64,000 nucleotides of DNA, taken from positions 2,294,001 to 2,358,000 of the forward strand of contig OY282430.1 of NCBI GenBank assembly GCA_958296025.1. Direction: 5' to 3'. The DNA comes from an uncultured Pseudomonadales bacterium. Its GTDB lineage: Bacteria; Pseudomonadota; Gammaproteobacteria; Pseudomonadales; Azotimanducaceae. Below are positions 22,253 through 64,000 of this stretch, piece after piece. How positions within the stretch are numbered: position 1 is the first letter of the stretch; each line of letters starts with the position of its first letter. The position numbers were made by a program, and so were the translations under genes. Under the pieces are notes generated by a model that was given only the letters and a program-made list of their open reading frames with translations, was not told where the DNA came from and did not search any database.

Positions 22253-25200
22253 ATGGGTTGGATGCAGGGTCCTGATATGCCGCTGCTTTTCTCTTTGCCC
22301 CGCTTCGAGGGCATGACTCGGCGGATTGCCGGCCGGCGGTGCGCCCACCTTGTCCCCTTGCTGCTCCTCGCCTTCGCCGCCGCCGCGCCCGATGCCGCCG
22401 CGCAGACGACGATTTCCGTCAACTCGCCGAGCGTGACGGAGGGCAACAGCGGCACGACGACCCTGACCTTCACGCTGACGCTGAGCAGGGCGTCCCCCGA
22501 GGGAAAGGAGACTGTCCGTTACCGGGATGACGGCACCGGGACGGCGACCGCGGGCACGGATTATGTGGAGCTCTCAACGATTGACGACAAGGATGCGAAC
22601 TACGCGGTAGTGACCTTCGACGCCTTCGAGACCACGGCGACCATCAATGTCACGGTGAACGGCGACACCGACGTCGAAGCGGACGAGACGATCAAACTGG
22701 CCCTGAGCAATCCGGTAGACGCCACTCTCGCCGCCACGACCGCCACGGGAACGATCACCAACGACGATCTGCCGACGCTATCGATCAACTCGCCACGGGT
22801 GACGGAGGGGGCGGCGGGGACGACGGCGAACCTGACCTACACGGTGAGCCTGACTCCGGCGAGCACACAGCAGGTGACGGTGAACTGGGCGGAGGGGACG
22901 GGCGGCACTGCCACTTCCGGGATGGACTACACGGCCATCACGGGCGGGACGCTGACCTTCGCGGCGGGGACGACCAGCCAGACCTTCAACGTGTCGGTGA
23001 AGGGGGACCCGCTGGACGAGGCGGACGAGACAGTGATTGCGACCCTGAGCAGCCCGACGAACGCGACGGTCTCGACCACGGCGGGTACCGGCACGGGGAC
23101 GATCACCGACGACGACGACCCGCCGACGGTGTCGGTCGCCGCGGCGAGCGTGACGGAGGGGGACAGCGGGTCGAAGAACCTGACTTTCACGGCGACCCTG
23201 AGCGCGGACAGCGGCAGGGAGGTGACGGTGGACTGGGCCGAGGGGACGGGCGGCACCGCCACTTCCGGGACGGACTACACGGCCATCACGGGCGGGAAGC
23301 TGACCTTCGCGGCGGGGACGAGGAGCCAGACCTTCCATGTGTCGGTGACGGGCGATGTCGTGGACGAGTCGAACGAGACGGTGGTGGTGGCGTTGAGCAG
23401 CCCGACGAACGCGACGATCTCGGCCACGGCGGGCAGCGCCACGGGGACCATCACGGACAACGACGCGACGCCGACCTCGATCACGCTGACGGTGAACGAC
23501 GACAGCGTGGACGAGGGGGACGGGGACACCACGATCACGGTGACGGCCACGGTGGACGGGACGACGCGGTTCGGCGTGGACAAGACGGTGACCGTGAGCG
23601 TGGCGGGCAGCGGCACGGCGGGGGCGGTGGACTTCGCGGCAGTGACGGATTTCGACATCACGATCGCGGCCGGGACGGCGAGCAAGAGCGAAACCTTCAC
23701 GCTGTCGCCCACGGACGACTCGGTGGACGAGACCGACGAGACGATCACGGTGAGCGGCGCTTCGACCGGCCTGACGGTGAACCAGGACACGATCACGTTG
23801 TCGGACGACGACGCGGCGCCGACCTCGATCACCCTGTCGGTGGACGACAGCAGCGTGGCGGAGGACGACGGGGCGACCACCATCACGGTTACCGCCACGG
23901 TGGATGGCACGACGCGGTTCGTTGACGACACCACGGTGGCGGTGAGCGTGGCGGGCAGCGGCACGGCGGCGGCGGTGGACTTCGCCGCGGTGTCGAACTT
24001 CAACATCTCCATCGGCGCCGGGGAGGCGAGCGGCACCGAAACCTTCACGCTGACGCCGACCGACGACACGGTACACGAGGCCAACGAGACGATCACGGTC
24101 AGCGGCACGTCGGGCGCCCTGACGGTGAACTCGGCCACGATCACCCTGACGGACGACGAGGCCCTGCCGACGGTGGCGCTGTCGCTGTCGCCGACGTCCA
24201 TCGGGGAGGCCGGCGGCGCCTCCACGGTGACGGCGACGCTTTCGGCGGTGTCGAGCGCGGCGGTGACGTTGACGGTGGGGGCGGCGGCGGGAACGGGCGC
24301 GGTCGCGGCCGACTTCAGTCTGAGCACGGCGAAGACGCTGACCATCGCGGCGGGCGCGACCACGAGCACGGGCACCGTGACGGTGACGGCCGCGGACAAC
24401 GACGTGGACGCGGCGAACAAGTCGGTGACCGTCTCGGCCACGGCGACGGGCGGCAACGGGGTGGCGGCGCCGTCCGATGTGACGCTGACGCTGACGGACG
24501 ACGACACCGCGGGCGTGACCTTCAACCCCACCACCCTGACCCTGACCGAGCAAGGCGCCAGCCAGAAGTTCACCATGGTGCTGGACTCGGAGCCCACCGG
24601 GCTGGTGTATATCACATTCCACCCGGACCCCGGGATCTCGGTGAAGGGCGCCGTGGCACCCGGTACGTACTCCTGGGGGAGCCTCGACTCGTCGAACTGG
24701 GACACGGGGATCACAGCGAGGGAGTTAACCGTCGCGGCCCTCGCGGACAGCAACATGCAGGACGAGACCAGGTACGTCAAATATTCGATGTCCGGCTACG
24801 GCTCCTTGGACGCGCCGTTCAGCAACCCCAGGAATGGGGTGAAGGTGATGGTCATCGACGACGACAAGCCGACCGTGACGCTGTCGCTGTCGCCGTCGTC
24901 CATCTCGGAGAACGGCGGGGTGGCCACGGTGACGGCGACGCTGGACGAGGCTGCGACCGTGGCCACCACGGTCACGGTGGCGGCGGCTGCGGGCACGGAC
25001 ACGGACGCTTCCGACTTCACCCTGAGTTCGGCGAACACGCTGACGATCGCCGCGGGGGACACGACGAGCACCGGCACGGTGACGATCACCGGCGTGGACA
25101 ACGCCCTCGACGAACCGGACAAGAGCGTCGCCGTGTCCGGCGCGGTTTCGCACAACGGCGTGGCGACGCCCACCGCCAAGACGCTGACGATCACCGACGA

Positions 25201-28200
25201 CGATCCCGCGCCGATGCTCTCCATCTCCTCCCCGAGCGTGACGGAGGGCGACAGCGGCTCGAGGAACCTGACCTTCACGGCCACCCTGAGCGCCGCCTCC
25301 GGACGCCAGGTGACGGTGCAGTATGCGGACGCGGGCACGGGGACGGCCACTTCCGGGACGGACTACACGGCCATCACCGCCGGCACGCTGACCTTCGCGG
25401 CGGGGACGACCAGCCAGACCTTCAACGTGGCGGTGACGGGCGACGTCCTGGACGAGGCGGACGAGACGGTGAAAGTGCGGCTGAAGGATCCGGTGAACGC
25501 GGCGGTCTCGACCACGGCGGGCACCGGCACCGGGACGATCACCGACGACGACGCCACGCCGACGCTGTCGATCAGCTCGCCGAGCGTAATGGAGGGCGAC
25601 AGTGGCTCCGCGGCGCTGACTTACACGGTGACCCTGAGCGCGGCCTCCGGCCGCCCGGTGACGGTGCAGTATGCGGACGCGGGCACGGGGACGGCCACTT
25701 CCGGGACGGACTACACGGCCATCACCGCCGGCACGCTGACCTTCGCGGCGGGGACGACCAGCCGGACCTTCAGCGTGTTGGTGACGGGCGACGTCGTGGA
25801 CGAGTCGAACGAGACGGTGGTGGTGACGTTGAGCAGCCCGACGAACGCGACGCTCTCGAGCACGGCGGCCAGCGCCACGGGGACGATCACCGACGACGAC
25901 GGCGCACCGGACACGATCACGCTGACGGTGGACGACGACGACGTGGGCGAGGGCGACGGGGCGACGACGATCACGGTGACCGCCACGGTGGACGGCACGA
26001 CCCGGTTCGCCGCGGCCAAGACGGTGACGGTGAGCGTGGCGGACAGCGGCACGGCGGGGGCGGTGGACTTCGCCGCGGTGTCGAACTTCAACATCTCCAT
26101 CGCCGCCGGGGCGGCGAGCGGCACAGGAAGCTTCACGCTGACGCCGACGGACGACTCGGACGACGAGACCGACGAGACCATCACGGTCAGCGGCACATCG
26201 ACCGGCCTGACGGTGAACCCGGCCACGATCAGCCTCACGGACGACGACGGCACGCCGACCTCGATCACGCTGACGGTGAACGACGACAGCGTCGGCGAAG
26301 GCGACGGGGCCACCACGATCACGGTGACCGCCACGCTGGACGGCTCGACGACGCTCGGCTCGGCCACGACGGTGCGGGTACACGTGGCGGGGAGCGGCGC
26401 CGCGACGGCGGTGGACTTCGACACGGTGTCGGCGTTCGACATCACGATCGCCGCGGGCGACGCGAGCGGCACCGCAGACTTCACGCTGACGCCAACGAAC
26501 GACGCAGTGGACGAGACCGACGAGACCATCACGGTGCGCGGCGCCTCGACCGGCCTGACGGTGAACTCGGCCACGATCAGCCTGACGGACAACGACGCCG
26601 CCCCGACCGCGATCACGCTGACGGTGAGCGACAGCAGCGTGGGCGAGGGCGACGGGGCGACCTCGATCACGGTGACCGCCACGGTGGACGGGACCACCCG
26701 CTTCGCCGAGGCGAAGACGGTGCGGGTGAGCGTGGCGGGGAGCGGCACGGCGCGGGCGGTGGACTTCGCGGCGGTGGAGGCGTTCAACATCGAGATCGCG
26801 GCGGAGGCGGCAAGCGACACCGCCGGCTTCACGCTGACGCCGACGGACGATGCCGTGGACGAGACCAACGAGACGGTGACGGTCAGGGGCACTTCCTCCG
26901 GTCTGACGGTGAACTCGGCCACGATCAGCCTGACGGACGACGACGGGGCGCCGACCGCGATCACGCTGACGGTGGACGACAGCAGCGTGGGCGAGGGGGA
27001 CGGGGCGGCCACGATCACGGTGACGGCCACGGTGGACGGCACGATGCGGTTCGCCGAGGACACGACGGTGACGGTGAGCGTGGCGGGCAGCGGCACGGCG
27101 ACGGCGGTGGACTTCGCGGCGGTGTCGTCCTTCGACATTACGATCCCCGCCGGGGCGGCGAGCAAGACCGGGAGCTTCACGCTGACGCCGACCAACGACG
27201 CGGTGGACGAGACCGACGAGACGGTGACGGTGGGCGGCACGTCGGGCAGCCTGACGGTGAACTCGGCCACGATCACGCTGACGGACAACGACGCGGCGCC
27301 GACCGAGATCACCTTGACGGTGAGCGACGACAGCGTGAGCGAGGGCGACGGGGCGACCACGATCACGGTGACGGCCACGGTGGACGGCACGACCCGGTTC
27401 GCCGAGGCCACGACGGTGACCGTGATCGTGACGGGGGGCGGTACGCCGGGAGGGGTGAATTTCTCGGCGGGGCTGGACTTCGACATCGTGATCGCCGCGG
27501 GGGCGGCGAGCGGCGCCAGCGACTTCATGCTGACGCCGACCGACGACGCGTTGGACGGGGTCAACGAGACGGTGACGTTTGCCGGCTACTCAGGCAGCCT
27601 GACGGTGAACGACGCCACGATCACGTTGACGGACGACGACGCTACGCCGACCGCGATCACCTTGACGGTGGACGACGACAGCGTGGCCGAGGACGACGGG
27701 GCGACCACCATCACGGTGACCGCCACGGTGGATGGCGGAACCCGGTTCATCACGGACACGACGGTGACGGTGAGCGTGGCCGGGAGCGGCGCGGCGGGAG
27801 CGGTGGACTTCGCGGCGGTGTCGGACTTCGACATTACGATCCAAGCGGCCGACGCGAGCAAGACCGGCACCTTCACGCTGACGCCGACCAACGACGCGTT
27901 CGATGAGACGAACGAGACGATCACGGTGAGCGGCACGTCGGGCAGCCTGACGGTGAACTCGGCCACGATCACGTTGACGGACGACGACGACGCCCCGACC
28001 GCGATCACGCTGACGGTGGACGACAGCAGCGTGGCCGAGGACGACGGGGCGACCACGATCACGGTGACCGCCACGGTGGACGGCGCGAGCCGGTTCGTTG
28101 ACGCCACGACCGTGACGGTGAGCGTGGCGGGCAGCGGCACGGCGACGGCGGTGGACTTCGCGGCGGTGTCGGACTTCGACATTACGATCGCCGCGGGCGC

Positions 28201-31200
28201 AGCGAGCAAGACCGGCACCTTCACGCTGACGCCGACGAACGACGCGGTGGACGAAACCAACGAGACGATCACGGTGAGCGGCACGTCGGGCAGCCTGACG
28301 GTGAACTCGGCCACGATCACTCTGACGGACGACGACGCGACGCCCTCGATCACGTTGACGGTGAACGACAACAGCGTGGCCGAGGACGACGGGGCGACCA
28401 CGATCACGGTGACCGCCACGGTGGATGGCACGACCCGGTTCGCCGGGGCGACGGCGGTGACCGTGAGCGTTGGGGGGAGCGGGACGGCGTCGGCGGTGGA
28501 CTTCGCGGCGGTGTCGGACTTCGACATCACGATCGCCGCGGGGGAGGCGAGCAAGACCGGCACCTTCACGCTGACGCCGACGAACGACGCGGTGGACGAA
28601 ACCAACGAGACGGTGACCGTGAGCGGCTCGTCAGGCACCCTGACGGTGAACTCGGCCACGATCACGTTGACGGACGACGACGACGCCCCGACCGCGATCA
28701 CGCTAACCGTGGACGACGACGGCGTGGGCGAGGACGACGGCGCCACCACGATCACGGTGACGGCCACGGTGGACGGCACGACCCGGTTCGCCGCGGCCAC
28801 GACGGTGACCGTGAGCGTCGCCGGGAGCGGGACGCCAACGGCGGTGGACTTCGCGTCGGTGTCGGATTTCGATATCGAGATCCCCGCCGGGGAGGGCAGC
28901 GGCACCGGAACCTTCACGTTGACGCCCACGGACGACGCGGACGACGAGACCGACGAGACCGTCACGGTGAGCGGCTCGTCGGGCAGCCTGACGGTGAACT
29001 CGGACACGATCAATCTGACGGACGATGACGGCGTGCCGACCTCGATCACGCTCACGGTGGACGACGACGACGTGGGCGAGGGCGACGGCGCTGCCACCAT
29101 CACGGTGACCGCCTCCGCGAACGGTGTCACGGGGTTCACCCAACCCCAGACCGTCCGCGTCAGCGTCGCCGGGAGCGGCGCGGCGGCGGCGGTGGACTTC
29201 GCGTCGGTGCCGGCGTTCGACATCATGCTCCCTGCTGGGGCGCTGAGCGCGAGCGGGGCCTTCACGTTAACGCCGATCAACGACACGGCCGACGAGGCCG
29301 ACGAGACCATCACGGTGAGCGGCGTGTCAGGCAGCCTGCCGGTGAACTCGGCCACGATCAGCCTGACGGACGACGACGGCGTGCCGACGTCGCTCACGCT
29401 GACGGTGGACGACGACTTCGTGAGCGAGGGGGACGGGCCGGCCACGATCAGGGTGACGGCCACGCTGAACGGCACGGGCCGGTTCGGCGAAGCCAAGACT
29501 GTGCGGGTACGCGTGTCGGGAAGCGGCACCGCGACCGCGGTGGATTTCGCGTCGGTGCCAGAGTTCGACATCACGATCAACGCCTCGGCGGCGAGCGGCA
29601 CCGGCACCTTCACCTTGACGCCGACCGACGACGTGGTGGACGAGACCAACGAGACCATCAAGGTGAGGGGCACTGCGTCCGGGCTGAGGGTGAACTCAGA
29701 CACCATCACGTTGGCGGACGACGACGCGACGCCAACCGCCATCAGCCTCACGGTGAACGACAACAGCGTCGGCGAGGGCGACGGCGCCACCACCATCACT
29801 GTCACCGCCACCGTGGACGGCGCCACCCGGTTCGCCGAGGCCACGACGGTGAGCGTGAGCGTGGCGGGCAGCGGCACGGCGACGGCGGTGGACTTCGCGG
29901 CGGTGTCGGACTTCGACATCGAGATCGCCGCCGAGGCGGCGAGCGGCACCGAAACCTTCACATTGACGCCAACCAACGACGTGGTGGACGAGACCACCGA
30001 GACCGTCACGGTTAGCGGCGAGTCAGGCAGCCTGACGGTGAGCTCGGCCACGATCAGCCTGACGGACAACGACGCCGCGCCGACTTCCATCACGCTGACG
30101 GTGGACGACAACAGCGTCGGCGAGGGCGACGGCGCCACCACCATCACCGTCACCGCCACGGTCGGCAGCACGCGGTTCGCCGCGGCCAGGACGGTGACGG
30201 TGAGCGTGGCGGGCAGCGGCACGGCGACGGCGGTGGACTTCGCGGCGGTGTCGGACTTCGACATCACGATCGCCGCAGGAATGGCGAGCGGGACCAACAC
30301 CTTCACGCTGACGCCGACGAACGACTTGCTGGACGAGACCGACGAGACCATCACCGTGAGCGGCACGTCAGGCACCCTGACGGTTACCTCGGCGACGATC
30401 AGCCTCACAGACGACGACGCGACGCCGACGCTGTCGATCAGCGAGCCGAGCGTGTCGGAGGGCGACAGTGGCTCGACGTCACTGACGTACACGGTGACCC
30501 TGAGCGCAGCCTCCGCACGCCAGGTGACGGTGCAGTATGCGGACGCGGGCACGGGGACGGCCACTTCCGGGACGGACTACACGGCCATCACCGCCGGCAC
30601 GCTGACCTTCACGGCGGGGACGACCAGCCAGACCTTCAGCGTGTCGGTGACGGGCGACGTCCTGGCCGAGTCGAACGAGACGGTGGTGGTGGCGTTGAGC
30701 AGCCCGACGAACGCGACGATCTCGGCTACGGCGGGCAGCGCCACGGGGACGATCACGAACGACGACGCGGCGCCGACCTCGATCACGCTAACGGTGAACG
30801 ACAACAGCGTGGCCGAGGGCGACGGGCCGACGACGATCACGGTGACGGCCACGGTGGACGGCACGACCCGCTTCGCCGCGGGCACCACGGTGACCGTGAG
30901 CGTGGCGGACAGCGGCACGGCGACGGCGGTGGACTTCGCGTCGGTGTCGGACTTCGACATTACGATCGCCGCGGGGGAGGCGAGCAAGACCGGCACCTTC
31001 ACGCTGACGCCGACGAACGACGCGGTGGACGAGACCAACGAGACGGTGACGGTGAGCGGCGAGTCGGGCAGCCTGACGGTGAACTCGGCGACGATCACGT
31101 TGACGGACGACGACGCGGCGCCGACGGCGATCACGCTGACGGTGAACGACAACAGCGTGGCCGAGGACGACGGGGCCACCACGATCACGGTGACGGCCAC

Positions 31201-37381: not shown

Positions 37382-37400
37382 CGAGGGCTCGGAGGGGGCG

Positions 37401-52501: not shown

Positions 52502-53272
52502 ATGGCGGATTTCGATACGGGCAAGCCACGCAAACGAGGCATCTATCTACTGCCCAACCTGCTGACCACCGGGGCGTTGTTCGCGGGGTTCTACTCCATC
52601 GTCGCGGCCATCGACGAAAATTTCCTCGGCGCCGCGTGGGCTATCTACATCGCCATGTTCCTGGACGGCCTGGACGGCCGCGTAGCCCGCATGACCAGCA
52701 CGGAAAGCGATTTCGGCAAGGAGTACGACAGTCTGTCGGACATGGTGTCCTTCGGGCTCGCGCCGGCCATCGTGACTTACCAGTGGGGTGTCGTGCGTCT
52801 GTCCGAGTACGGTGTTCTCTGGGGCCGGCTCGGTTGGCTGGCGGCCTTTCTTTATGCGGTGTCCGCCGCGCTGCGGTTGGCGCGGTTCAACACCGGCGGG
52901 TCCAGCGACAAGCGATTCTTTCGCGGCCTTCCCAGCCCGCCGGCCGCCGCGGGCATTGCGGCGATGGTTTGGGGGAGCATCGAATACGAAATCGGCGGGC
53001 TGATTGCGTTGGTGGCCGGAGTCGCCATCACCGCGCTGACGGGTATCGCCATGATGTCCAACTTCCGCTACCTGAGCTTCAAGGACTTCAATTTGAGTAG
53101 CCGCGTTCCGTTTGGCAACCTCATGTTCGTGCTTGCCCTGCTGATCGTCGTGGCGCTGAACCCGCCGGTCGTTATCTTCGCCATGTTCTGCGTGTACTCC
53201 TGCTCCGCGCCGGCCGTGTGGGCTTGGCGGCGGTTCCGCCGCCGCCGCGCCATGGCCAGAGAGTCCGGCTGA
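52502..53272 (+). CDS. pssA: CDP-diacylglycerol-serine O-phosphatidyltransferase
   Basis: A 256-residue membrane enzyme that makes phosphatidylserine from CDP-diacylglycerol and serine, the precursor of phosphatidylethanolamine. The CDP-alcohol phosphotransferase signature is exact: Asp58-Gly59, Ala62-Arg63, Gly72, Asp76 and Asp80 (DGRVAR ... FGKEYDSLSD). It has about eight hydrophobic segments and a basic end (WRRFRRRRAMARESG). The N-terminus RKRGIYLLPNLLTTGALFAGFYSIV is typical of gammaproteobacterial PssA. It is a core housekeeping gene enclosed between giants B and C. Confidence 0.92.
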   Translation: MADFDTGKPRKRGIYLLPNLLTTGALFAGFYSIVAAIDENFLGAAWAIYIAMFLDGLDGRVARMTSTESDFGKEYDSLSDMVSFGLAPAIVTYQWGVVRLSEYGVLWGRLGWLAAFLYAVSAALRLARFNTGGSSDKRFFRGLPSPPAAAGIAAMVWGSIEYEIGGLIALVAGVAITALTGIAMMSNFRYLSFKDFNLSSRVPFGNLMFVLALLIVVALNPPVVIFAMFCVYSCSAPAVWAWRRFRRRRAMARESG

Positions 53273-53494: not shown

Positions 53495-53595
53495 CCGGCC
53501 CCGGCGGTCTTGCTCGGAGCGAGGGCCGGTGGAGTGTCCTCGCGGAGGGTTTCCCCCGGATGCACCGGGTCCATGGAAGGGCGTCTCTCGATCAT
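53495..53595 (-). pseudogene. 5' stub of the GT2 synthase gene
   Basis: The minus strand encodes the first about 33 codons of the GT2-GtrA protein (MIERRPSMDPVHPGETLRED...), then breaks off at 53495 at the duplication edge. It shows that the leader came from the GT2/giant B intergenic region. Confidence 0.75.
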
Positions 53596-53909
53596 CGGCG
53601 GTGGTTCTCCATGCCCGTGTCGGCAGCGCCGTCGTCCCATCCGAGGGCGGCGCGGACATCGGCCGCGAGGGGCGAGGAACCGCCTGCAGGTGCGGCGACA
53701 ACCCTAATTCATCGAGCATTGCCAACAATCATTATCTTTGTACAATCGAATCCCTTGCTTGTTGTATTCTCGTTTCGGCAGCGGCCCGGTCGATGTGGAT
53801 GTGGTGGAGCCATGGCGAGTTCATGGATCGAATGTGAAGCTGTACGGCTGGGCGGAGTCCATGCATAGCGGGTGGACATCGTAATGCCCTTCCCTTGCGA
53901 GGCGGCGGC
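53495..53909. repeat. Leader block, copy 2 (upstream of giant C)
   Basis: Near-identical copy of 40347-40762. The left edge is the same CCGGCCC...GGGCCGG inverted repeat. Differences cluster in the AT-rich promoter-like part (a few bases missing after CAATCATTA) and at one GGC insertion before the start codon. Confidence 0.8.
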
Positions 53910-53913
53910 GTGA
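53884..53913 (+). CDS. Micro-ORF coupled to giant C start (9 codons)
   Basis: MPFPCEAAA, ending in a TGA that overlaps the GTG start of giant C. It has one extra Ala codon compared with the copy ahead of giant B; the reading frame and GTGA overlap are kept. Confidence 0.4.
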   Translation: MPFPCEAAA

Positions 53914-56900
53914 AGCGCGCGGTTGGAAGGGGCCTCTGCGCCGCGGCCTTCCTGGGCATCGCCCTCGTGGCGGCCTTCGCCGCGGCGCCGGCGGCGGCGC
54001 AGGACTCCTGCACGAACTGCCTGCAGCGGCCGGTCGTCACCTCCACCCCGGCGTCGGGGACCACCTACTATCCGGGCGAGACCATCGTGGTGCAGGTGCG
54101 GCCCCGGAGCGCGCCGTGGGTCAGCATCACCAGCGCGGACAGCCCCACGCTGGGGCTCAACGTCGGCGGCAGCGTCAAGTCGTTGAGCGGGAACCTCCAG
54201 TCCCAGCGATTTTCCTACACCTATTACGACCTCGGGGACGTCCAGACCGCCTACCGGGATTCCAACGTGCTGGAGTTCCGCTACACGGTGCAGAAGGGGG
54301 ACCGCGACACCGACGGGGTGAGCGTGGCGGCGAACGCGCTGGGCGGCGGCAATATCGGCGCCAACGTCGGCGGCAGCCAGCACGGCGGCGGGACCTGGCG
54401 CCCGAACCTCAGCAAGAACCACAGCGCGATGAGCGCCCAGTCCGGCCACAAGGTGGACACGCCGGCGCCGTCCTGGAGCGGGGTGACGGCGCCGGACATC
54501 ATTTTCTACGCGGGCGGTTCGGTGAGCTACCGGCTGCCGCAGGTGGCGAACGCGGCCTCGGCGCACAACGTCAGCTATTCGGTGACGTCGGCGCGGCCGC
54601 TGCCGACGGGCTATACGCTGAACGCGTCCACGGCGACGATCACGGGGTCGTATGCCTCCGCGCTGGCGCGGCAGAGCTACACGCTGCGGGCGACGGACGG
54701 GTTCAGCCGCACCGCCGATCTGACGTTCCACCTGCAGGTGAGCGCCGACGCGGGGATCGAGTCGATCTCGATCACGTCGAACCCCGGCGCGGACAAGACC
54801 TACGGCAAGGTCGCGCCGTTCGGGACCAACGACACGATCACCGTGAGGGTGGACTTGACGCACCGGCTCACGACGGTCCTCCCGTCGAACGTGTGCCTGG
54901 ACATCCAGATCGGGAGCAACACCCGCCGGACGTGCAGCCCCTCCTATTCCACCTCGGACTCCAGCCGCTGGGACAAGCTCGATTTCAGCTACGCGGTGCA
55001 GGCGGGCGACTGGGATGGCGACGGCATCTCCTTCCCGACGAACTCGATGGGCGCCGGCAAGATCGGCGGCCTCCGTTTCCACCGCACCGGAGGCGGCACC
55101 GACAACCGGGTGAACCGGAACTTCGCGTCGATTCCGGACGACGCGAACCACAAGGTGCGCGGGCAGCAGACCGTGCCGAGCTTCGGCTCGACGGCCAGCC
55201 CGTCCCATAGCTGGGTGAAGGACAACGCGGTGTCGCAGGTGCTGCCGGCGGCGACGGGCGGCGACGGCGGCGTGACGTACAGCATCGAGGAGAGTCTGCC
55301 GGCCGGGCTGAGCTTCGCCGCGGCGACGCGGACCGTTTCCGGCACGCCGACGGCGGCGCAGGCGGCGGCGAACTATACGCTGGCGGCGACGGACGCGGAC
55401 GGCGACAAGGCGACGCTGCGCTTCTCCATCGAGATCCAGGGGATCACGGTCTCCATCGACTCGCCGAGCGTGACGGAGGGGGACAGCGGCTCGAAGAACC
55501 TGACTTTCACCGCGACCCTGAGCACGGCCAGCGCCCAGCAGGTGACGGTGGACTACGCCGACGCCGGAACCGGGACGGCCACTTCGGGCGCGGACTACAC
55601 GGCGATCACCGACGGCACGCTGACCTTCACGGCGGGGACGACCAGCCAGACCTTCGACGTCTCGGTGACCGGCGACACGACCGACGAGGTGGACGAGACC
55701 ATCCTGGTGACCCTGAGCAACGCGTCCGGGGCAACGATCTCGACGGCGACCGGCACGGGGACGATCACGGACAACGACGACCCGCCGACGGTGTCGGTCG
55801 CCGCGGCGAGCGTGACGGAGGGGGACAGCGGCTCGAAGAACCTGACGTTCACGGCGACGTTGAGCGCCGCGAGCGGCAAGCAGGTGACGGTGACCTGGGC
55901 GGAGGGGACGGGCGGCACCGCCACTTCCGGGACGGACTACACGGCCATCACCGGCGGGACGCTGACCTTCGCGGCGGGGACGACCAGCCAGACCTTCAAC
56001 GTGTCGGTGACGGGCGACGTCGTGGACGAGTCGAACGAGACGGTGGTGGTGACGTTGAGCAGCCCGGCGAACGCGACGATCTCGGCCACGGCGGGCAGCG
56101 CCACGGGGACGATCACCGACAACGATGCGACGCCGACCTCGATCACGCTGACGGTGAACGACGACAGCGTGGACGAGGGGGATGGGGACACCACGATCAC
56201 GGTGACGGCCACGGTGGACGGGACGACGCGGTTCGGCACGGCCAAGACGGTGAGCGTGAGCGTGGCGGGCAGCGGCACGGCGTCGGCGGTGGACTTCGCG
56301 GCGGTGTCGGACTTCAACATCACGATCGCGGCCGGGACGGCGAGCAAGAGCGAAACCTTCACGCTGTCGCCCACGGACGACTCGGTGGACGAGACCGACG
56401 AGACGATCACGGTGAGCGGCACTTCGTCCGGCCTGACGATTAACTCGGACACGATCACGTTGTCGGACGACGACGACACGCCCTCGATCACGCTGTCGGT
56501 GAGCGACAGCAGCGTGGCGGAGGACGACGGGGCGACCACCATCACGGTGACCGCCACGGTGGACGGGACGACGCGGTTCGGCGTGGACAAGACGGTGAGC
56601 GTGAGCGTGGCGGGGAGCGGCACGGCGGCGGCGGTGGACTTCGCCGCGGTGTCGAACTTCAACATCTCCATCGGCGCCGGGGAGACGAGCGGCACCGAAA
56701 CCTTCACGCTGACCCCGACCGACGACACGGTACACGAGGCCAACGAGACGATCACGGTCAGCGGCACGTCGGGCACGCTGACGGTGAACTCGGCCACGAT
56801 CACCCTGACGGACGACGAGGCCCTGCCGACGGTGGCGCTGGCGCTGTCGCCGACGTCCATCGGGGAGGCCGGCGGCGCCTCCACGGTGACGGCGACGCTT

Positions 56901-59900
56901 TCGGCGGTGTCGAGCGCGGCGGTGACCTTGACGGTGGCGGCGGCGGCGGGAACGGGCGCGGTCGCGGCGGACTTCAGTCTGAGCACGGCGAAGACGCTGA
57001 CCATCGCGGCGGGCGCGACCACGAGCACGGGCACCGTGACGGTGACGGCCGCGGACAACGACGTGGACGCGGCGAACAAGTCGGTGACCATCTCGGCCAC
57101 GGTGACGGGCGGCAACGGGGTGGCGGCGCCGTCCGACGTGACGCTGACGCTGACGGACGACGACACCGCGGGCGTGACCTTCAACCCCACCACCCTGACC
57201 GTGACCGAGCAAGGCGCCAGCCAGTCGTTCACCGTGGTGCTGGACTCCGAGCCCACCGGGGGGACAAACGGGACAACGTGGGTCGGTCTCACTCCCTCCG
57301 ACACCGACGAGCTCGATCTGAACAGCGCCTTGACTTACCCGTACAACCTCTCGTTCACCACGTCGAACTGGGACACGGCGCAGACGGTGGCCGTCACGGC
57401 CCTCGGGGACAGCGACCGCACGAACGACACCAAGCAGATCAGGTACACGGTGGCCGGCTATACGGGCGGGGAGGTGACGAACCAGCTCGCGGTCACCGTC
57501 ACGGTCATCGACGACGACAAGCCGACCGTGTCGCTGTCGCTGTCGTCGTCGTCCATCTCGGAGAACGGCGGGGTGGCCACGGTGACGGCGACGCTGGACG
57601 AGGCTGCGACCGTTGCCACCACGGTCACGGTGGCGGCGGCTGCGGGCGCGGACACGGACGCTTCGGACTTCACCCTGAGTTCGGCGAACACGCTGACGAT
57701 CGCCGCGGGGAACACGACGAGCACCGGCACGGTGACGATCACCGGCGTGAACAACGCCCTCAACGAACCGGACAAGAGCGTCACCGTGTCCGGCACGGTT
57801 TCGCACGACGGCGTGGCACCGCCCACCGCCAAGACGCTGACGATCACCGACGACGATCCCGCGCCGATGCTCTCGATCAACTCGCCGAGCGTGACCGAGG
57901 GCAATAGTGGCTCTAAGAACCTGACCTTCACGGCAACCCTGAGCGCCGCCTCCGGACGCCAGGTGACGGTGGACTACGCCGACGCCGGGATCGGCACGGC
58001 CACTTCCGGGACGGACTACACGGCCATCACCGCCGGCACGCTGACCTTCGCGGCGGGGACGACCAGCCAGACTTTCAACGTGTCCGTGACGGGCGACGTC
58101 CTGGACGAGGCGGACGAGACGGTGAAAGTGCGGATGAAGGATCCGGTGAACGCGGCGGTCTCGACCACGGCGGGCACCGGCACCGGGACGATCACCGACG
58201 ACGACGCCACGCCGACGCTGTTGATCAGCTCGCCGAGCGTGTCGGAGGGCGACAGTGGCTCGACGGCGCTGACCTATACGGTGACCCTGAGCGCCGCCTC
58301 CGGACGCGAGGTGACGGTGCAGTATGCGGACTCGGGCCTGGGGACAGCCACTTCCGGGACGGACTACACGGCCATCACCGCCGGCACGCTGACCTTCGCG
58401 GCGGGGACGACCAGCCGGACCTTCAGCGTGTCGGTGACGGGCGACACGGTGGCCGAGTCGGACGAGACGGTGGAGGTGACGTGGAGCAACGCGGCGAACG
58501 CGATGATCTCGACGCGCGCCGGGCTCGTCACCAATGCGCTAAGGGTTGACGGGACGATCACGGACGACGACGGCGCGCCGGACACGATCACGCTGACGGT
58601 GGACGACGACGACGTGGGCGAGGGCGAGGGAGCCACCACCATCACGGTGACGGCCACGGTGGACGGCACGACCCGGTTCGCCGAAGCCAAGACGGTGACG
58701 GTGAGCGTGGCGGGGACCGGCACAGCGGGGGCGGTGGACTTCACCGCCGTGTCGTCCTTCAACATCTCCATCGCCGCCGGGGCGGCGAGCGGCACCGGAA
58801 GCTTCACGCTGACGCCGACGGACGACTCGGACGACGAGACCGACGAGACCATCACGGTCAGCGGCACATCGACCGGCCTGACGGTGAACCCGGACACGAT
58901 CAGCCTCACGGACGACGACGGCACGCCGACCTCGATCACGCTGACGGTGAACGACGACAGCGTGGGCGAGGGCGACGGGGCGACCACGATCACGGTGACC
59001 GCCACTTTGGACGGCTCGACGACGCTCGGCTCAGCCACGACGGTGCGGGTACACGTGGCGGGGAGCGGCACAGCGACGGCGGTGGATTTCGACACGGTGT
59101 CGGCGTTCGACATCACGATCGCCGCGGGCGACGCGAGCGGCACCGCAAACTTCACGCTGACGCCGACCGACGATGTGGAGGACGAGACGGACGAGAGGAT
59201 CAAGGTGAGAGGGACATCGTCCGGTCTGACGGTGAACTCGGCCACGATCAGCCTGACGGACGACGACGCGGCCCCGACCTCGATCACCTTGACGGTGGAC
59301 GACAGCAGCGTGGGCGAGGGCGACGGGGCGACCTCGATCACGGTGACCGCCACGGTGGACGGGACCACCCGCTTCGCCGAGGCGAAGACGGTGCGGGTGA
59401 GCGTGGCGGGGACCGGCGCGGCGGGGGCGGTGGACTTCGCGGCGGTGGAGGCGTTCGACATCGAGATCGCGGCGGGGGCGGCGAGCGACACCGCCGGCTT
59501 CACGCTGACGCCGACGGACGACGCGGTGGACGAGACGGACGAGACGATCACGGTCAGCGGCACGTCAGGCAGTCTGACGGTGAACTCGGCCACGATCAGC
59601 CTGACGGACGACGACGGGGCGCCGACCTCGATCACCTTGACGGTGGACGACAGCAGCGTCGGCGAGGGGGACGGGGCGGCCACGATCACGGTGACGGCCA
59701 CGGTGGACGGCACGATGCGGTTCGCCGAGGACACGACGGTGACGGTGAGCGTGGCCGGCAGCGGCGCGGCGACGGCGGTGGACTTCGCGGCGGTGTCGTC
59801 CTTCAACATCACGATCCCCGCCGGGGCGGCGAGCAGGACCGGGAGCTTCACGCTGACGCCGACGGACGACGCGGTGGACGAGACCGACGAGACGGTGACG

Positions 59901-62900
59901 GTGGGCGGCATGTCGGGCAGCCTGACGGTGAACTCGGCCACGATCACCCTGACGGACAACGACGCGGCGCCGACCGCGATCACCTTGACGGTGAGCGACG
60001 ACAGCGTGAGCGAGGGCGACGGGGCCACCGCGATCACGGTGACCGCGACGGTGGACGGCACGACCCGGTTCGCCGCGGACACGACGGTGAGCGTGCTCGT
60101 GAGGACGGACAGCGGGACGATGAACGCGGTGGACTTTGCGTCGGTGCCGGGGTTCGACATTACGATCGCCGCGGGGGCGGCGAGCGGTACCGAAACCTTC
60201 ACGCTGACGCCGACGAACGATGCGGTGGACGAGAACGACGAGACGATCACGGTGTACGGCGCCTCAGGCAGCCTGACGGTGAGCTCGGCCACGATCACGT
60301 TGACGGACGACGACGCGACGCCGACCGCGATCACGCTGACGGTGAGCGACAGCAGCGTGGCGGAGGACGACGGGGCGACCACGATCACGGTGACCGCCAC
60401 GGTGGACGGCGCGACGCGGTTCGCCACGGCGACGACGGTGACGGTGAGCGTGGCGGGGACCGGCACGGCGTCGGCGGTGGACTTCGCGGCGGTGTCGGAC
60501 TTCGACGTCGAGATCGATGCGGCCGACGCGAGCGCTACCGAAACCTTCACGCTGACGCCGACGAACGACGTGCTGGACGAGACGAACGAGACGATCACGG
60601 TGAGCGGCACGTCGGGCAGCCTGACGGTGAACTCGGCGACGATCACGCTGACGGATGACGACGCGACGCCCTCGATCACGCTGACGGTGAACGACGACAG
60701 CGTGGCCGAGGACGACGGGGCGACCACGATCACGGTGACGGCCACGGTGGACGGGACGACCCGGTTCGTTGATGCCACGACCGTGACCGTGAGCGTGGCG
60801 GGCAGCGGGACGGCGACGGCGGTGGACTTCGCGGCGGTGTCGGACTTCAACATCGAGATCGCGGCGGAGGCACAGAGCAAGACCGGGACCTTCACGCTGA
60901 CGCCGACGAACGACGTGGTGGACGAGACGAACGAGACGATCACGGTGAGCGGCTCGTCGGGCAGCCTGACGGTGAACGCGGCCACGATCACGTTGACGGA
61001 CGACGACGCGACGCCCTCGATCACGCTGACGGTGGACGACAACAGCGTGGCCGAGGACGACGGGGCGACCACGATCACGGTGACCGCCACGGTGGACGGG
61101 ACGACCCGGTTCGCCGGGGCGACGACGGTGACGGTGAGCGTGGCGGGCAGCGGGACGGCGACGGCGGTGGACTTCGCGGCGGTGTCGGACTTCAACATCG
61201 AGATCGCGGCGGAGGCACAGAGCAAGACCGGGACCTTCACGCTGACGCCGACGAACGACGCGGTGGACGAGACCGACGAGACCGTCACGGTGAGCGGCGA
61301 GTCGGGCAGCCTGACGGTGAACTCGGCCACGATCGCGCTGACGGACGACGACGCGGCGCCGACCGCGATCACGCTGACGGTGAGCGACAGCAGCGTGGCC
61401 GAGGACGACGGGGCGACCACGATCACGGTGACGGCCACGGTGGACGGGACGACCCGGTTCGCCGCGGCCACGACGGTGAGCGTGAGCGTTTCGGGCAGCG
61501 GCACGGCGACGGCGGTGGACTTCGCGGCGGTGTCGTCGTTCAACATCACGATCTCCGCGGAGGCGGCGAGCGCGAACAACACCTTCACGCTGACGCCGAC
61601 GGACGACGCGGTGGACGAGACCGACGAGACGGTGACGGTGAGCGGCGAGTCGGGCAGCCTGACGGTGAACTCGGCCACGATCGCGCTGACGGACGACGAC
61701 GCGGCGCCGACGGCGATCACGCTGACGGTGAACGACAACAGCGTGGCCGAGGACGACGGGGCCACCACGATCACGGTGACGGCCACGGTGGACGGGACGA
61801 CCCGGTTCGCCGCGGCGACGACGGTGACGGTGAGCGTTGCGGGGACCGGCACGGCGACGGCGGTGGACTTCGCGGCGGTGTCGGACTTCAACATCCAGAT
61901 CGCGGCGGAGGCGCAGAGCAAGACCGGGACCTTCACGCTGACGCCGACGAACGACGCGGAGGACGAGGCCGACGAGACGGTGACGGTGAGCGGCGAGTCG
62001 GGCAGCCTGACGGTGAACTCGGCCACGATCACGCTGGCGGACGACGACCCGATGCCATCGCTGTCGATCGACTCGCCGATCGTGGCGGAGGGGAACGCCG
62101 GCGCCAAGGACATGACGTTCACGGTGACGCTGTCGGCGGCCAGCGGCCGGCAAGTGACGGTGAACTACGCGGTGGACAGCACAGACCCGGGGACGGCGAC
62201 GAGCGGGACGGACTACGCGCCAGTCTCGTCGGGGACGCTGACGTTCGCGGTAGGCGCCACGTCGAGGACCGTCACGGTGTCGGTGACCGGGGACACGGCG
62301 ATGGAGCCGGACGAGACGGTGCGGCTGACGCTGAGCGCCCCGACGAACGCGACGCTCGGCACGGCGACCGGGGTGGGGACGATCGTGAGCGAGGACGGGG
62401 TGTCGCTGATCCGCATAGACGCGGACCCGACGACGGTCAACGTGGCCGAACCGGGGCCGCTGGCGCTGAAGGAGCTGTCCACGGACTCGGCGAACTCGAA
62501 GAGCTACTCGGTGCGGCTGAAGACGCCGCCGACGCAAACCGCGACGGTGACGATCACCAGCGGCGACACCGGGGCGGTGACGGTCAACGACACCGACGGC
62601 GACAACACGAACGGCGTGCAGAACACGCTGACGTTCACGGCGCAGAACTGGAGCGCGGCGCGGACGGTGACGCTGACGGCCGCGGAGGACGACGACGGCG
62701 CGGACGAGAGCGTGGCGGTGACGCACGCGGCCAGCACGGCCTCGAACAGCGAGTACACGGGCATGACGGCGAGCCTGACGGCGACGGTGGACGACGACGA
62801 GACTCCGGCGGTGGTGATCGACGCGGACCCCTCCACGGCCAACGTGGACGAAGCCGGCCCGCTGACGCTGACCGAGGGCCACGCCTCGAACGCGAAGACC

Positions 62901-64000
62901 TACTCGGTGCGGCTGGCCACGGAGCCGACGCAAACCGTGACGGTGACCCTGACGAGCGCCGACACGGGCGCGGTGTCCATCGACGACACCGACGGCGACA
63001 ACACGAACGGCGTGCAGAACGCCCTGACCTTCACCTCCACCACTTGGGAGACGGCGCAGAGCGTCACCGCGCGGGCGGCGGACGACGACGACGCCACGGA
63101 CGAGTCCGTGGCCCTGGGCGCGACCGCGAGCACCGCCACGACGAGCGAGTACACCGGCGTCACGGCCAGCCTCGCCGCCGCGGTGGACGACGACGAGACC
63201 CGCGCCGTGACGCTGGGCGCCGCGACCCTGTCGGTGCCGGAGAACGGCAGCGCCATGTACACCGCGAAGCTGGCCGCGCAGCCGGTGGGCGGGAACGTGA
63301 CGGTGACGATCACGGGCGCCGGCAGCGGCATCACGGCGCGCCCGACGACGCTGACGTTCACGCCGACGAGCTGGAGCACGGCGCAGACCGTGACGGTGAG
63401 CGCGGCGGCGGACCTGAACGGGGTCCACGAGAGCGTCACGCTCAGGCACGCCGCGTCCGGCGCGGACTACAACAGCGTGACGCCGGCGGAGATCGTGGCG
63501 ACGGCGACGGACGACGACGGTCCGAGCCTGCATGTGAGTTCGAACATGCTGACAGTCGAAGAGGGGAGCAGCGCCGCCTACCAGGTGCGCCTGAACACGC
63601 AGCCGAGCGCCGGCGTGACGGTGACGGTGGGCGGCGCGACGACCGGGGTGACGGTGGACACGGACGGCGACGCGACCGGCAACCAGACCACGCTGACGTT
63701 CTCGACGACGGACTGGGGCACTGACCGGGAGGTGAAGGTGAGCGCCGCCGCGGACGACGACGCCACCAACGAGACGCTGACGCTAACGCACGGGGCGAGC
63801 GGCGCGACGGAGTACACGGGGCTGGCCGCCGGGGCGCGGCCAAGCGTGGCGGTGACGGTGGACGACGACGACACGCGGGCCGTCCTGATCGACGCCGATC
63901 CGACGACGACGAACGTGGACGACCCCGGCCCGCTGGCGCTGAACGAGTTGTCCACGGACCCGGCGAACGCGAAGACCTACTCGGTGCGGCTGGCGACGGA
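53910..64000 (+). CDS. Giant Calx-beta-repeat exported protein C (partial)
   Basis: Open from the GTG at 53910 to the right edge without a stop (at least 3363 residues); I read the frame at many points along its length. A signal peptide (KRAVGRGLCAAAFLGIALVAAFAAAPAAAQ) is followed by a variable domain with a CTNC pair (about 30-175), then the same He_PIG, variable-fold and He_PIG module as giant B, nearly identical from 54437 onward. Calx-beta modules include 12 copies of the 116-residue unit, then the EGNAGAKDMTFTVTL module and NW-type repeats as in giant A. So C has a B-like head and an A-like later part. The C-terminal LRR tail, if present, is outside the window. Confidence 0.88.
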   Translation, partial: MKRAVGRGLCAAAFLGIALVAAFAAAPAAAQDSCTNCLQRPVVTSTPASGTTYYPGETIVVQVRPRSAPWVSITSADSPTLGLNVGGSVKSLSGNLQSQRFSYTYYDLGDVQTAYRDSNVLEFRYTVQKGDRDTDGVSVAANALGGGNIGANVGGSQHGGGTWRPNLSKNHSAMSAQSGHKVDTPAPSWSGVTAPDIIFYAGGSVSYRLPQVANAASAHNVSYSVTSARPLPTGYTLNASTATITGSYASALARQSYTLRATDGFSRTADLTFHLQVSADAGIESISITSNPGADKTYGKVAPFGTNDTITVRVDLTHRLTTVLPSNVCLDIQIGSNTRRTCSPSYSTSDSSRWDKLDFSYAVQAGDWDGDGISFPTNSMGAGKIGGLRFHRTGGGTDNRVNRNFASIPDDANHKVRGQQTVPSFGSTASPSHSWVKDNAVSQVLPAATGGDGGVTYSIEESLPAGLSFAAATRTVSGTPTAAQAAANYTLAATDADGDKATLRFSIEIQGITVSIDSPSVTEGDSGSKNLTFTATLSTASAQQVTVDYADAGTGTATSGADYTAITDGTLTFTAGTTSQTFDVSVTGDTTDEVDETILVTLSNASGATISTATGTGTITDNDDPPTVSVAAASVTEGDSGSKNLTFTATLSAASGKQVTVTWAEGTGGTATSGTDYTAITGGTLTFAAGTTSQTFNVSVTGDVVDESNETVVVTLSSPANATISATAGSATGTITDNDATPTSITLTVNDDSVDEGDGDTTITVTATVDGTTRFGTAKTVSVSVAGSGTASAVDFAAVSDFNITIAAGTASKSETFTLSPTDDSVDETDETITVSGTSSGLTINSDTITLSDDDDTPSITLSVSDSSVAEDDGATTITVTATVDGTTRFGVDKTVSVSVAGSGTAAAVDFAAVSNFNISIGAGETSGTETFTLTPTDDTVHEANETITVSGTSGTLTVNSATITLTDDEALPTVALALSPTSIGEAGGASTVTATLSAVSSAAVTLTVAAAAGTGAVAADFSLSTAKTLTIAAGATTSTGTVTVTAADNDVDAANKSVTISATVTGGNGVAAPSDVTLTLTDDDTAGVTFNPTTLTVTEQGASQSFTVVLDSEPTGGTNGTTWVGLTPSDTDELDLNSALTYPYNLSFTTSNWDTAQTVAVTALGDSDRTNDTKQIRYTVAGYTGGEVTNQLAVTVTVIDDDKPTVSLSLSSSSISENGGVATVTATLDEAATVATTVTVAAAAGADTDASDFTLSSANTLTIAAGNTTSTGTVTITGVNNALNEPDKSVTVSGTVSHDGVAPPTAKTLTITDDDPAPMLSINSPSVTEGNSGSKNLTFTATLSAASGRQVTVDYADAGIGTATSGTDYTAITAGTLTFAAGTTSQTFNVSVTGDVLDEADETVKVRMKDPVNAAVSTTAGTGTGTITDDDATPTLLISSPSVSEGDSGSTALTYTVTLSAASGREVTVQYADSGLGTATSGTDYTAITAGTLTFAAGTTSRTFSVSVTGDTVAESDETVEVTWSNAANAMISTRAGLVTNALRVDGTITDDDGAPDTITLTVDDDDVGEGEGATTITVTATVDGTTRFAEAKTVTVSVAGTGTAGAVDFTAVSSFNISIAAGAASGTGSFTLTPTDDSDDETDETITVSGTSTGLTVNPDTISLTDDDGTPTSITLTVNDDSVGEGDGATTITVTATLDGSTTLGSATTVRVHVAGSGTATAVDFDTVSAFDITIAAGDASGTANFTLTPTDDVEDETDERIKVRGTSSGLTVNSATISLTDDDAAPTSITLTVDDSSVGEGDGATSITVTATVDGTTRFAEAKTVRVSVAGTGAAGAVDFAAVEAFDIEIAAGAASDTAGFTLTPTDDAVDETDETITVSGTSGSLTVNSATISLTDDDGAPTSITLTVDDSSVGEGDGAATITVTATVDGTMRFAEDTTVTVSVAGSGAATAVDFAAVSSFNITIPAGAASRTGSFTLTPTDDAVDETDETVTVGGMSGSLTVNSATITLTDNDAAPTAITLTVSDDSVSEGDGATAITVTATVDGTTRFAADTTVSVLVRTDSGTMNAVDFASVPGFDITIAAGAASGTETFTLTPTNDAVDENDETITVYGASGSLTVSSATITLTDDDATPTAITLTVSDSSVAEDDGATTITVTATVDGATRFATATTVTVSVAGTGTASAVDFAAVSDFDVEIDAADASATETFTLTPTNDVLDETNETITVSGTSGSLTVNSATITLTDDDATPSITLTVNDDSVAEDDGATTITVTATVDGTTRFVDATTVTVSVAGSGTATAVDFAAVSDFNIEIAAEAQSKTGTFTLTPTNDVVDETNETITVSGSSGSLTVNAATITLTDDDATPSITLTVDDNSVAEDDGATTITVTATVDGTTRFAGATTVTVSVAGSGTATAVDFAAVSDFNIEIAAEAQSKTGTFTLTPTNDAVDETDETVTVSGESGSLTVNSATIALTDDDAAPTAITLTVSDSSVAEDDGATTITVTATVDGTTRFAAATTVSVSVSGSGTATAVDFAAVSSFNITISAEAASANNTFTLTPTDDAVDETDETVTVSGESGSLTVNSATIALTDDDAAPTAITLTVNDNSVAEDDGATTITVTATVDGTTRFAAATTVTVSVAGTGTATAVDFAAVSDFNIQIAAEAQSKTGTFTLTPTNDAEDEADETVTVSGESGSLTVNSATITLADDDPMPSLSIDSPIVAEGNAGAKDMTFTVTLSAASGRQVTVNYAVDSTDPGTATSGTDYAPVSSGTLTFAVGATSRTVTVSVTGDTAMEPDETVRLTLSAPTNATLGTATGVGTIVSEDGVSLIRIDADPTTVNVAEPGPLALKELSTDSANSKSYSVRLKTPPTQTATVTITSGDTGAVTVNDTDGDNTNGVQNTLTFTAQNWSAARTVTLTAAEDDDGADESVAVTHAASTASNSEYTGMTASLTATVDDDETPAVVIDADPSTANVDEAGPLTLTEGHASNAKTYSVRLATEPTQTVTVTLTSADTGAVSIDDTDGDNTNGVQNALTFTSTTWETAQSVTARAADDDDATDESVALGATASTATTSEYTGVTASLAAAVDDDETRAVTLGAATLSVPENGSAMYTAKLAAQPVGGNVTVTITGAGSGITARPTTLTFTPTSWSTAQTVTVSAAADLNGVHESVTLRHAASGADYNSVTPAEIVATATDDDGPSLHVSSNMLTVEEGSSAAYQVRLNTQPSAGVTVTVGGATTGVTVDTDGDATGNQTTLTFSTTDWGTDREVKVSAAADDDATNETLTLTHGASGATEYTGLAAGARPSVAVTVDDDDTRAVLIDADPTTTNVDDPGPLALNELSTDPANAKTYSVRLAT
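58580..62040 (+). repeat. Tandem 348-bp Calx-beta array of giant C
   Basis: Units 3-12 of the 116-residue module; starts at about 58932, 59280, 59628 and 59976 step by 348 bp, later ones by 345-354 bp. Units 1-2 lie at about 56134-56820. The array has fewer units than A or B. Confidence 0.8.

Follow-up and report, generated by a model that had tools for sequence, protein, structure and literature searches.

Periscope Proteins such as SasG, Rib, Sgo_0707, and CdrA are presented, in the parts of Whelan 2021 (PMC8201768) drawn on here, as an N-terminal functional domain on a stalk of tandem similar folded domains, whose copy number differs between relatives and whose detection needs long reads. 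We analyzed three giant genes, A, B, and C, that are alike in the tandem stalk, the differing copy number, and the need for long reads; in B and C, an N-terminal tip is the candidate functional domain. They lie in a 64,000-nt stretch of DNA (the window), positions 2294001-2358000 of the single-contig genome G000 (3,915,453 bp) of an uncultured Pseudomonadales bacterium. Unlike the Periscope Proteins covered in those parts, the giants are much larger, belong to seven recombining paralogues, show transfer between genera, and have no known anchor. By analogy, A-C are probably exported, length-variable, Periscope-like fibrillar adhesins of a recombining gene family. The assembled sequences demonstrated module exchange among A-C and dispersed members, change of array length, and transfer between genera; from signal peptides and analogy, the giants presumably sit at the cell surface.

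Other described systems resemble the giants in part. The consecutive genes giant1-5 of Apilactobacillus kunkeei encode exported repeat proteins of 3000-8000 aa (PMC12863079) and are alike in short intragenic recombination and sequence exchange between two genera; unlike A-C, they are Gram-positive and, in the passages cited, have beta-solenoid tips, alpha-helical repeats in Giant1-3, and DUF5776 ends. Kordia antarctica carries a 16,944-aa gene with >100 tandem Calx-beta domains and a signal peptide (PMC7477175). Its Calx-beta arrays and signal peptide recall A-C, whereas it is a single Flavobacteriaceae gene with a TIGR04131 gliding-type C-terminus, for which the cited passages report no paralogue mosaic. 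BapP of Pseudoalteromonas tunicata, with demonstrated Ca2+-dependent biofilm formation (PMC12153261), and LapA share Calx-beta or cadherin-like domains with the giants (PMC12153261, PMC7616799). However, BapP is described there as a protein of ~1600 aa with possible type 1 secretion (PMC12153261), and the RTX adhesin LapA has RTX repeats (PMC7616799), unlike the giants. Searches of the openly licensed PMC literature listed no paper whose title or abstract described this giant Calx-beta family. The ingredients, namely Calx-beta giants, biofilm adhesins, giant-gene clusters, and Periscope Proteins, are each already known.

The three genes are as follows (window coordinates).
22253-36853, + strand: giant A, 4866 codons (open-frame list)
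40751-52030, + strand: giant B, 3759 codons with a TTG start (open-frame list)
53895-64000, + strand: giant C, part within the window; 4988 codons in total, ending at genome position 2362861

A preliminary description of the window had reported three giant exported-type genes on one strand, and this held, with 4866, 3759, and 4988 aa for A, B, and C, all on the + strand. By eye, each has a signal peptide; in A, the likely start is the ATG at 22313, followed by a Sec-type signal peptide, and in B a GTG at 40763 is as likely a start as the TTG. The genes had also been called tandem paralogues. They are paralogues, but they are not adjacent, since other genes lie between A and B and between B and C.

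Module exchange and transfer between genera

Seven giants of G000, A to G, have a common C-terminal leucine-rich repeat/immunoglobulin-like (LRR/Ig) module, 87-92% identical to that of B. The stop-to-stop lengths of D, E, F, and G are 11,836, 4209, 5070, and 3747 aa, and the seven together comprise ~38,500 codons, or 3% of the genome. Comparisons were made with a congener (G005; 97% 16S identity to G000), two members of other genera of the same family (G364, 89%; G332, 91%), and a further relative (G366). In a plasmid collection, the best near-full-length 16S match among those listed was to Methylomagnum, a gammaproteobacterium, at 86.4%, and 15 unlisted records reached at least 90%, by their ranking over shorter parts, which places G000 at class level only. 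The modules of A, B, and C were located as listed, with array units of 116 residues ("regular units") found by the unit profile.
23453-24148, + strand: A regular units 1-2
25889-30406, + strand: A regular units 3-15
30755-31450, + strand: A regular units 16-17
32594-36850, + strand: A distal trunk and LRR/Ig C-terminal module; DNA identity to C 97.4%, E 94.1% (short of the end), and F 93.2%
36854-36921, + strand: 3' flank of A, common to B and C only
40347-40846, + strand: 5' leader of B, with 96% identity to the C leader; no copies besides these two were found in the genome
40847-41338, + strand: B tip, a sharply bounded divergent first domain; DNA identity 58% to the C tip and 96.7% to the G364 B tip
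41339-42298, + strand: B N-zone, with He_PIG Ig domains plus another tip-like domain; identity to the C N-zone 97%
42983-43675, + strand: B regular units 1-2
45425-49951, + strand: B regular units 3-15
50321-52027, + strand: LRR/Ig C-terminal module of B, which all seven giants of G000 share
52031-52197, + strand: 3' flank of B, matched at 98% by that behind C
52191-52361, + strand: behind B, a relic of the beta-barrel-like end that giants of G005 and G366 carry (57 codons; identity 46%; E ~1e-8)
53495-53996, + strand: 5' leader of C, a copy of the B leader with a GT2 remnant
53991-54479, + strand: C tip; DNA identity 95.9% to the G364 C tip, 89.5% to the G332 C tip, and 58% to the B tip
54480-55430, + strand: C N-zone
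56115-56807, + strand: C regular units 1-2
58560-62036, + strand: C regular units 3-12

As listed, the order in B and C is tip domain, N-zone, and stalk. The N-zone holds Pfam He_PIG Ig domains in two stretches, and its second tip-like domain was recognized by eye. In A, this 516-aa N-terminal module is absent, and the gene leads straight into the Calx-beta part. The stalk mixes canonical Calx-beta units with regular units. A distal trunk of ~1.2 thousand aa is present in A and one of ~1.7 thousand aa in C, with none in B, and the final ~490 aa of the giants form the LRR/Ig module.

Two stretches of the window were closely matched in G364.
40019-49973, + strand: stretch matching the G364 B-type locus (92.5% over 9968 columns), comprising the 5' part of the GT2 gene, leader, tip, N-zone, and array
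53739-62048, + strand: stretch matching the G364 C-type giant (92.3% over 8325 columns)

Both stretches stop at the end of the regular array, and the C-terminal modules differ beyond that point. The number of synonymous changes per site (dS) between G000 and G364 was ~0.03 in the tips and 0.03-0.05 in the N-zone, and the leader blocks of B and the G364 B-type gene were 92-100% identical. As a control, five core-looking frames of G000 chosen from tblastn matches were compared with their counterparts in G364 or G332, six pairs in all; their protein identity was 49-69% and their dS 1.08-1.50, and two such frames gave dS 0.61 and 0.79 against G005. The tip dS of 0.03 thus stands against a core-frame dS >1 between genomes with 89% 16S identity, indicating at the level of aligned sequence that the B- and C-type tip-plus-stalk stretches moved between genera by horizontal transfer. 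The giants of G005 were 70-83% identical to A-C (five longest matches per locus), below the 92% of G364. The C-type gene of G332 follows hflC and purA (named by eye), and that of G364 adjoins a 333-aa rve-type transposase frame. The G364 B-type gene is preceded by a truncated GT2 piece and lies between two transposase remnants, one N-terminal (L095 16901-17265) and one C-terminal (L095 2642-2810). The two are 68-82% and 92-96% identical to the rve-type transposase. The 165-aa frame of one remnant had no Pfam match. The two remnants are perhaps one split transposase gene, or they may be unrelated to each other.

Between B and C, DNA identity falls to ~58% in the tip and is mostly 96-100% on either side. 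Tip proteins were 95% identical between B and G364 B, 94% between C and G364 C, and 80% between C and G332 C, versus 39% between B and C, where the ratio of nonsynonymous to synonymous change (dN/dS) was ~1.3 (dN 0.52-0.66, dS 0.39-0.49). By these identities there are at least two discrete tip types, and the difference between types is far above that of same-type copies across genera. Within types, dN and dS were near equal (0.033/0.033, 0.045/0.034, and 0.119/0.094); therefore, the cross-genus identity of the tips would reflect recent common origin, not strong constraint. A diversity-generating retroelement was considered for the tip variation and rejected, as there is no adenine bias and the difference covers a whole domain of ~490 bp.

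Next, the array units of the three genes were compared. For units 1-8, the best match was mostly the unit at the same position in another gene (exceptions by identity, B04 and A07), indicating that the array is older than the three gene copies. The order of the first modules, which had been described as kept, is indeed kept; because the array predates the copies, this order alone is no evidence of exchange. The partners, however, change along the array. By identity, the closest pair was A-B at units 1, 2, 6, and 9, A-C at 3 and 4, and B-C at 5, 7, and 8. A maximum-likelihood tree of 63 units grouped A-B (2 and 9), A-C (3 and 4), and B-C (7 and 8) with support of at least 95 and 80, whereas the tree grouping of units 1, 5, and 6 differed from the identity grouping, with support under these values. 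Informative sites were clustered (chi2 536.5, whereas 2000 shuffles of sites reached at most 139.6 and 2000 of codons at most 172.6), also at synonymous sites only (65.8 versus a shuffle maximum of 53.1), in an alignment that includes, in part, units of uncertain homology. Block identities among A, B, and C range from ~65 to 99.7%. The inter-gene recombination proposed in the preliminary description was thus borne out by discordant supported unit groupings, by clustered sites, and by the composition of C, which has B-like flanks and an A/E/F-like distal half; the unit tree showed exchange between genes rather than its absence.

Giant C appears to have two parents. Its leader contains the initial 146 bp of the GT2 gene whose start lies before B, identical at 146/146 positions, and no third copy of the B/C leader was found in a search of the genome. 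In contrast to these B-like flanks, C matches A at 97.4% over its distal ~1400 codons, a zone mostly absent from B, and E and F, hundreds of kilobases off, are 92-94% identical to the distal zone of A and C over 3.4-6.3 kb. The B-type leader of C looks locally acquired, because the C-type genes of G364 and G332 carry other leaders, save for the last stretch before the start. In the likeliest history, we infer that the B locus was duplicated, and that one copy exchanged its tip for a C-type tip and its distal half for an A/E/F-like one.

The regular unit and the length of the arrays

Regular units were counted with a profile of 116 positions derived from the units of these genes (score >140 bits). 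The counts of 17 for A and 15 for B agreed with those given previously, and the earlier "at least 12" for C became exactly 12, a final count, as the later part of C is made of other domains. Neighboring unit starts are spaced by exactly 116 codons in 30 of 37 cases and by 115 or 117 in the others, and TRF reported a period of 348 with scores of 5558, 6267, and 4471 for A, B, and C. Within genes, the median DNA identity of units was 82% (A), 85% (B), and 83% (C), with a range of 70-98%. The unit of 348 bp is therefore almost exact in length, as had been stated, but not in sequence.

The unit had also been assigned to the Ca2+-type Calx-beta domains. By fold the assignment to Calx-beta was supported, whereas the single unit misses the Pfam cut-off. 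Pfam Calx-beta (PF03160) passed its cut-off at seven places in A and at five in B, through non-regular units, and the B13-14 unit pair gave no Calx-beta match. AlphaFold2 modeling of the unit pair (34 window pairs) reached a best predicted local distance difference test score (pLDDT) of 86.6; two of the five models were poor (45.4 and 42.9). In a Foldseek search with this model, the top five solved matches were all NCX1, including the CBD12 tandem (E 2.5e-9 to 4.3e-8), and below them followed protein 4.2, the CALX CBD12 tandem (rank 9), transglutaminases, and RbmA. A sequence search of the PDB with the unit profile gave nothing significant. On the strength of the model, the regular unit is a divergent Calx-beta domain by fold. 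Six acidic residues are invariant in 34/34 unit pairs (E21, D89, D92, E96, D118, and D120), which may correspond to the Ca2+ ligands of NCX1.

Array length was then compared across relatives, with units 1-9 as the fixed reference. The order of these units is kept across genera, and the tail behind them differs in length: eight units in A, six in B, four in C, nine in the G364 B-type gene (position 7 absent), and 12 in the G364 C-type gene. Assignments inside the tail are ambiguous since tail units are alike. In total, G000 and G364 have 15 versus 17 regular units in the B-type gene and 12 versus 21 in the C-type gene. The proposed length variation is thus supported between species; the notion of a locus built for it was too narrow, because seven members are dispersed in this genome and relatives occur in other genera. 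Units 12-14 of B are 96-98% identical to one another in DNA, which by sequence is recent local tandem growth. Periscope repeats are tandem repeats of >50 residues with identity of at least 80%. B units 12-14 lie above this value, and the last B pairs are 90-97% identical in protein to B13-14, whereas several A unit pairs fall under 80% (65-86% to the B13-14 pair). The change of copy number that marks Periscope Proteins was observed across genera (B 15/17 and C 12/21, in a common stretch with 92% DNA identity).

C-terminal modules, poly-C tracts, and gene neighborhood

The LRR/Ig module was found in five of 38 relatives at E ≤ 1e-20, G000 included, and among 293 genomes sampled from the order, most of them fragmented assemblies, it occurred at E ≤ 1e-40 in G000 only. 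A wider contig scan with the C-terminal alignment found one distant locus in a Gemmatimonadetes metagenome-assembled genome (45% identity). NCBIfam matches of the module to LRR-bearing type III effectors were dismissed, since they lay well under the cut-off and amount to no more than LRR similarity. In the C-terminal tree, the seven modules of G000 formed one clade (96/97) versus R1, R2, and R3 of G005; unlike this clustering by genome, the N-termini of E and F match R2 of G005 (~53%). The regular-unit-pair profile was found in nine of 150 family genomes at E ≤ 1e-30. Of the 29 genomes listed, five are single-contig (G000 included), and each of the five belongs to these nine. We suspect that fragmented assemblies hide such giant genes.

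Other C-termini occur in relatives. The giants of G332 and G364 have a different motif in 4/4 cases, with LRRs in the two that were scanned. Three frames each of G005 and G366 end in a barrel-like C-terminus. In the three such ends tested, all strongly amphipathic, the alternating hydrophobicity was reached by ≤1 of 1000 shuffles, versus 61-142 for control stretches of B (n = 3). The three ends scanned had no Pfam barrel at E ≤ 1, and a PDB search with one end gave no significant match. We read the barrel relic behind B as a probable trace of C-terminal module exchange. Two known classes were rejected for A-C: RTX adhesins, as no nonapeptide motif occurs in any of the seven giants, and autotransporters, as A-C end in the LRR/Ig module and not in an outer-membrane beta-barrel.

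Several small LRR proteins of G000 also match the giants' C-terminal module. An orphan 118-aa frame (G000:C1:3086809-3087129) has only the last part of this module, and six of 11 examined frames for small LRR proteins share another C-terminus (~GKWRLFITA...GHVTNLST). Gene D (G000:C1:2903161-2938668) contains 14 tandem copies of a 1368/1371-bp block with 99.4-100% DNA identity, a copy number that may be an assembly estimate. D also has an N-terminal GH123-like domain, I36/crystallin-like domains, and, by eye, many tip-like domains. The longest frame among the unit-profile-positive relatives, at G366:C1:3696266-3756775, has 20,170 aa, 125 unit-profile matches (18 regular), and a barrel-like C-terminus. 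At G366:C1:2849536-2866456, two frames (1717 and 4130 aa) abut in different reading frames at an internal C26 tract, next to a 5695-aa frame with an A-like N-terminus. An interpretation as three tandem giants was rejected, as the first two frames look like one gene interrupted at the C26 tract.

Poly-C tracts of 15-31 nt were found at the 5' end of giant frames in three of five checked in G005 (of the exceptions, R1 has no tract and R3 a run of eight) and in 5/5 in G366, where one tract sits inside the apparent single interrupted gene. In G000, a C tract separates an ATG from the signal peptide in F (C15) and in E (C11). The 5' ends of E and F are near-identical, and the ATG is in frame with the signal peptide in F and out of frame in E. 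Of the C/G runs of at least 15 in ~723 kb from five genomes, 9/10 lay within -600 to +250 of the open-frame start of a giant; the DNA surveyed had been selected around giants, and assemblies do not give reliable homopolymer lengths. No run of at least eight was present in this range in A, B, C, D, G, or the four giants of G332 and G364. The tracts suggest phase variation of some relatives.

The genes between the giants are as follows.
37353-39116, + strand: GT22 (Alg9-like mannosyltransferase), between A and B
39251-40492, - strand: GT2-GtrA glycosyltransferase, between A and B, whose first 146 bp are copied exactly before C
52502-53272, + strand: CDP-alcohol phosphatidyltransferase (pssA-like), between B and C, the second copy in the genome

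The gap between A and B also holds a short frame resembling tetratricopeptide repeats. A link of the giants to glycosylation through the neighboring GT2 gene is speculative, because its best homologue in G005 (2118257) is ~95 kb away from the closest family member observed in that genome. The CDP-alcohol phosphatidyltransferase is 47-50% identical to a copy that is present in each of the nine genomes of the genus searched (9/9). Upstream of A by ~3 kb, at 16811-19194, lie genes for an XcyI-like restriction endonuclease and for an N6/N4 DNA methylase, separated from A by a TonB-dependent receptor gene. An Rfam scan of the window at gathering thresholds gave no match, and a promoter and terminator scan of 36800-41000 found nothing exceeding chance.

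Readings of the giants and their significance

If A-C are fibrillar adhesins, the N-terminal tip of the fiber would set binding specificity, and a Ca2+-stiffened Calx-beta stalk would set reach, holding the tip away from the cell. The stalk would consist of units 1-9 in fixed order followed by a tail array of changing copy number, and the resident C-terminal LRR/Ig trunk would serve retention or release. Recombination at the arrays and at flanking identity would permit replacement of tips and ends.

Several observations weigh against the adhesin reading. The model of the N-terminal module, built with two sequences, had a pLDDT of 39.5 and is unusable for the tip fold. A lone regular unit scored 18 bits against Pfam Calx-beta (cut-off 27), and the TM score over the query (TMq) was only 0.33 across the two-domain model, perhaps owing to a differing angle between the two domains; Ca2+ binding by the units is suggested by the fold and the conserved acidic residues. 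The RTX GGxGxD nonapeptide motif occurs in 0 of the seven giants (7/7 without it), and A-C have no known anchor; the barrel-like end behind B, 160 bp downstream where the flank common with C stops, is a relic only. Selection is also uneven. dN/dS was 0.46-0.81 in the aligned unit zones and 0.48-0.56 in the C-terminal module, and 0.40 and 0.94 in two parts of the distal zone of A-C, of which the latter is a further point against, as are the near-equal dN and dS within tip types and the value of 1.86 in the B-C N-zone, with few changes (28). In the first 40 codons the ratio was 1.7, also with few changes.

As the foremost alternative, the giants may be released matrix or coat proteins, such as a biofilm scaffold or S-layer-like mesh, whose LRR/Ig end is no anchor. 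We consider this unlikely, though it is the best-placed of the alternatives. The missing RTX motif of A-C is in its favor, as are the absence of any Pfam anchor family in the whole of A or B and the Foldseek match to the Vibrio cholerae matrix protein RbmA, which ranked below NCX1 and CALX. However, a barrel-like domain forms the end of relatives in G005 and G366, with the relic behind B, and an alike C-terminus in seven giants suggests a common retention or export step. Common tip types together with a length-variable stalk better fit projection from the surface.

Alternatively, the arrays may change by unselected recombination, with size and mosaicism as by-products in proteins that do little. 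Such a history would account for the near-identical block copies of gene D and the fresh copies of B units 12-14, and dN/dS of ~1 within tip types and >1 in the N-zone would indicate either weak constraint or selection for change. Nevertheless, open frames of 11-35 kb remain intact, the unit zones show the dN/dS values below 1 given above, and the order of nine unit positions is conserved between genera; we therefore regard this explanation as improbable.

Vertical descent under extreme constraint is a very doubtful source of the cross-genus similarity. Strong constraint on tip and N-zone is conceivable, but the synonymous sites (dS 0.03) and the non-coding leader are near-identical while core dS is >1, and the congener G005 is less similar than G364 from another genus, with the genes at different locations. 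Least probable of all is an assembly artefact that duplicated one locus: repeats are hard to assemble, and homopolymer or copy-number errors may occur, especially in gene D, but the assembly, if not raw long reads, shows genes that differ in nearly every module and have different neighbors, and genes of the B type and of the C type are each found again in other single-contig genomes.

Giant repeat genes evolve in ways that are hard to see, as short reads assemble them poorly. Closed genomes separate four layers here, namely ancestral unit order, tail growth, exchange among paralogues, and transfer between genera with a discrete tip. Separate evolution of reach, through stalk length, and of specificity, through the tip, thereby becomes testable, and exact junctions are available to seek in long-read metagenomes. 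Beyond the adhesin reading of A-C, we tentatively propose, at somewhat short of an even chance, a shared adhesin pool, in which discrete tip alleles circulate between genera in ~10-kb stretches that stop at the array boundary, are grafted onto the homogenized LRR or barrel-like ends native to each genome, and have their tails re-lengthened, several of the genes being switched by 5' poly-C tracts. If this is true, the giants of the pool would be exchangeable, length-tuned, and phase-variable fibers of one gammaproteobacterial family.

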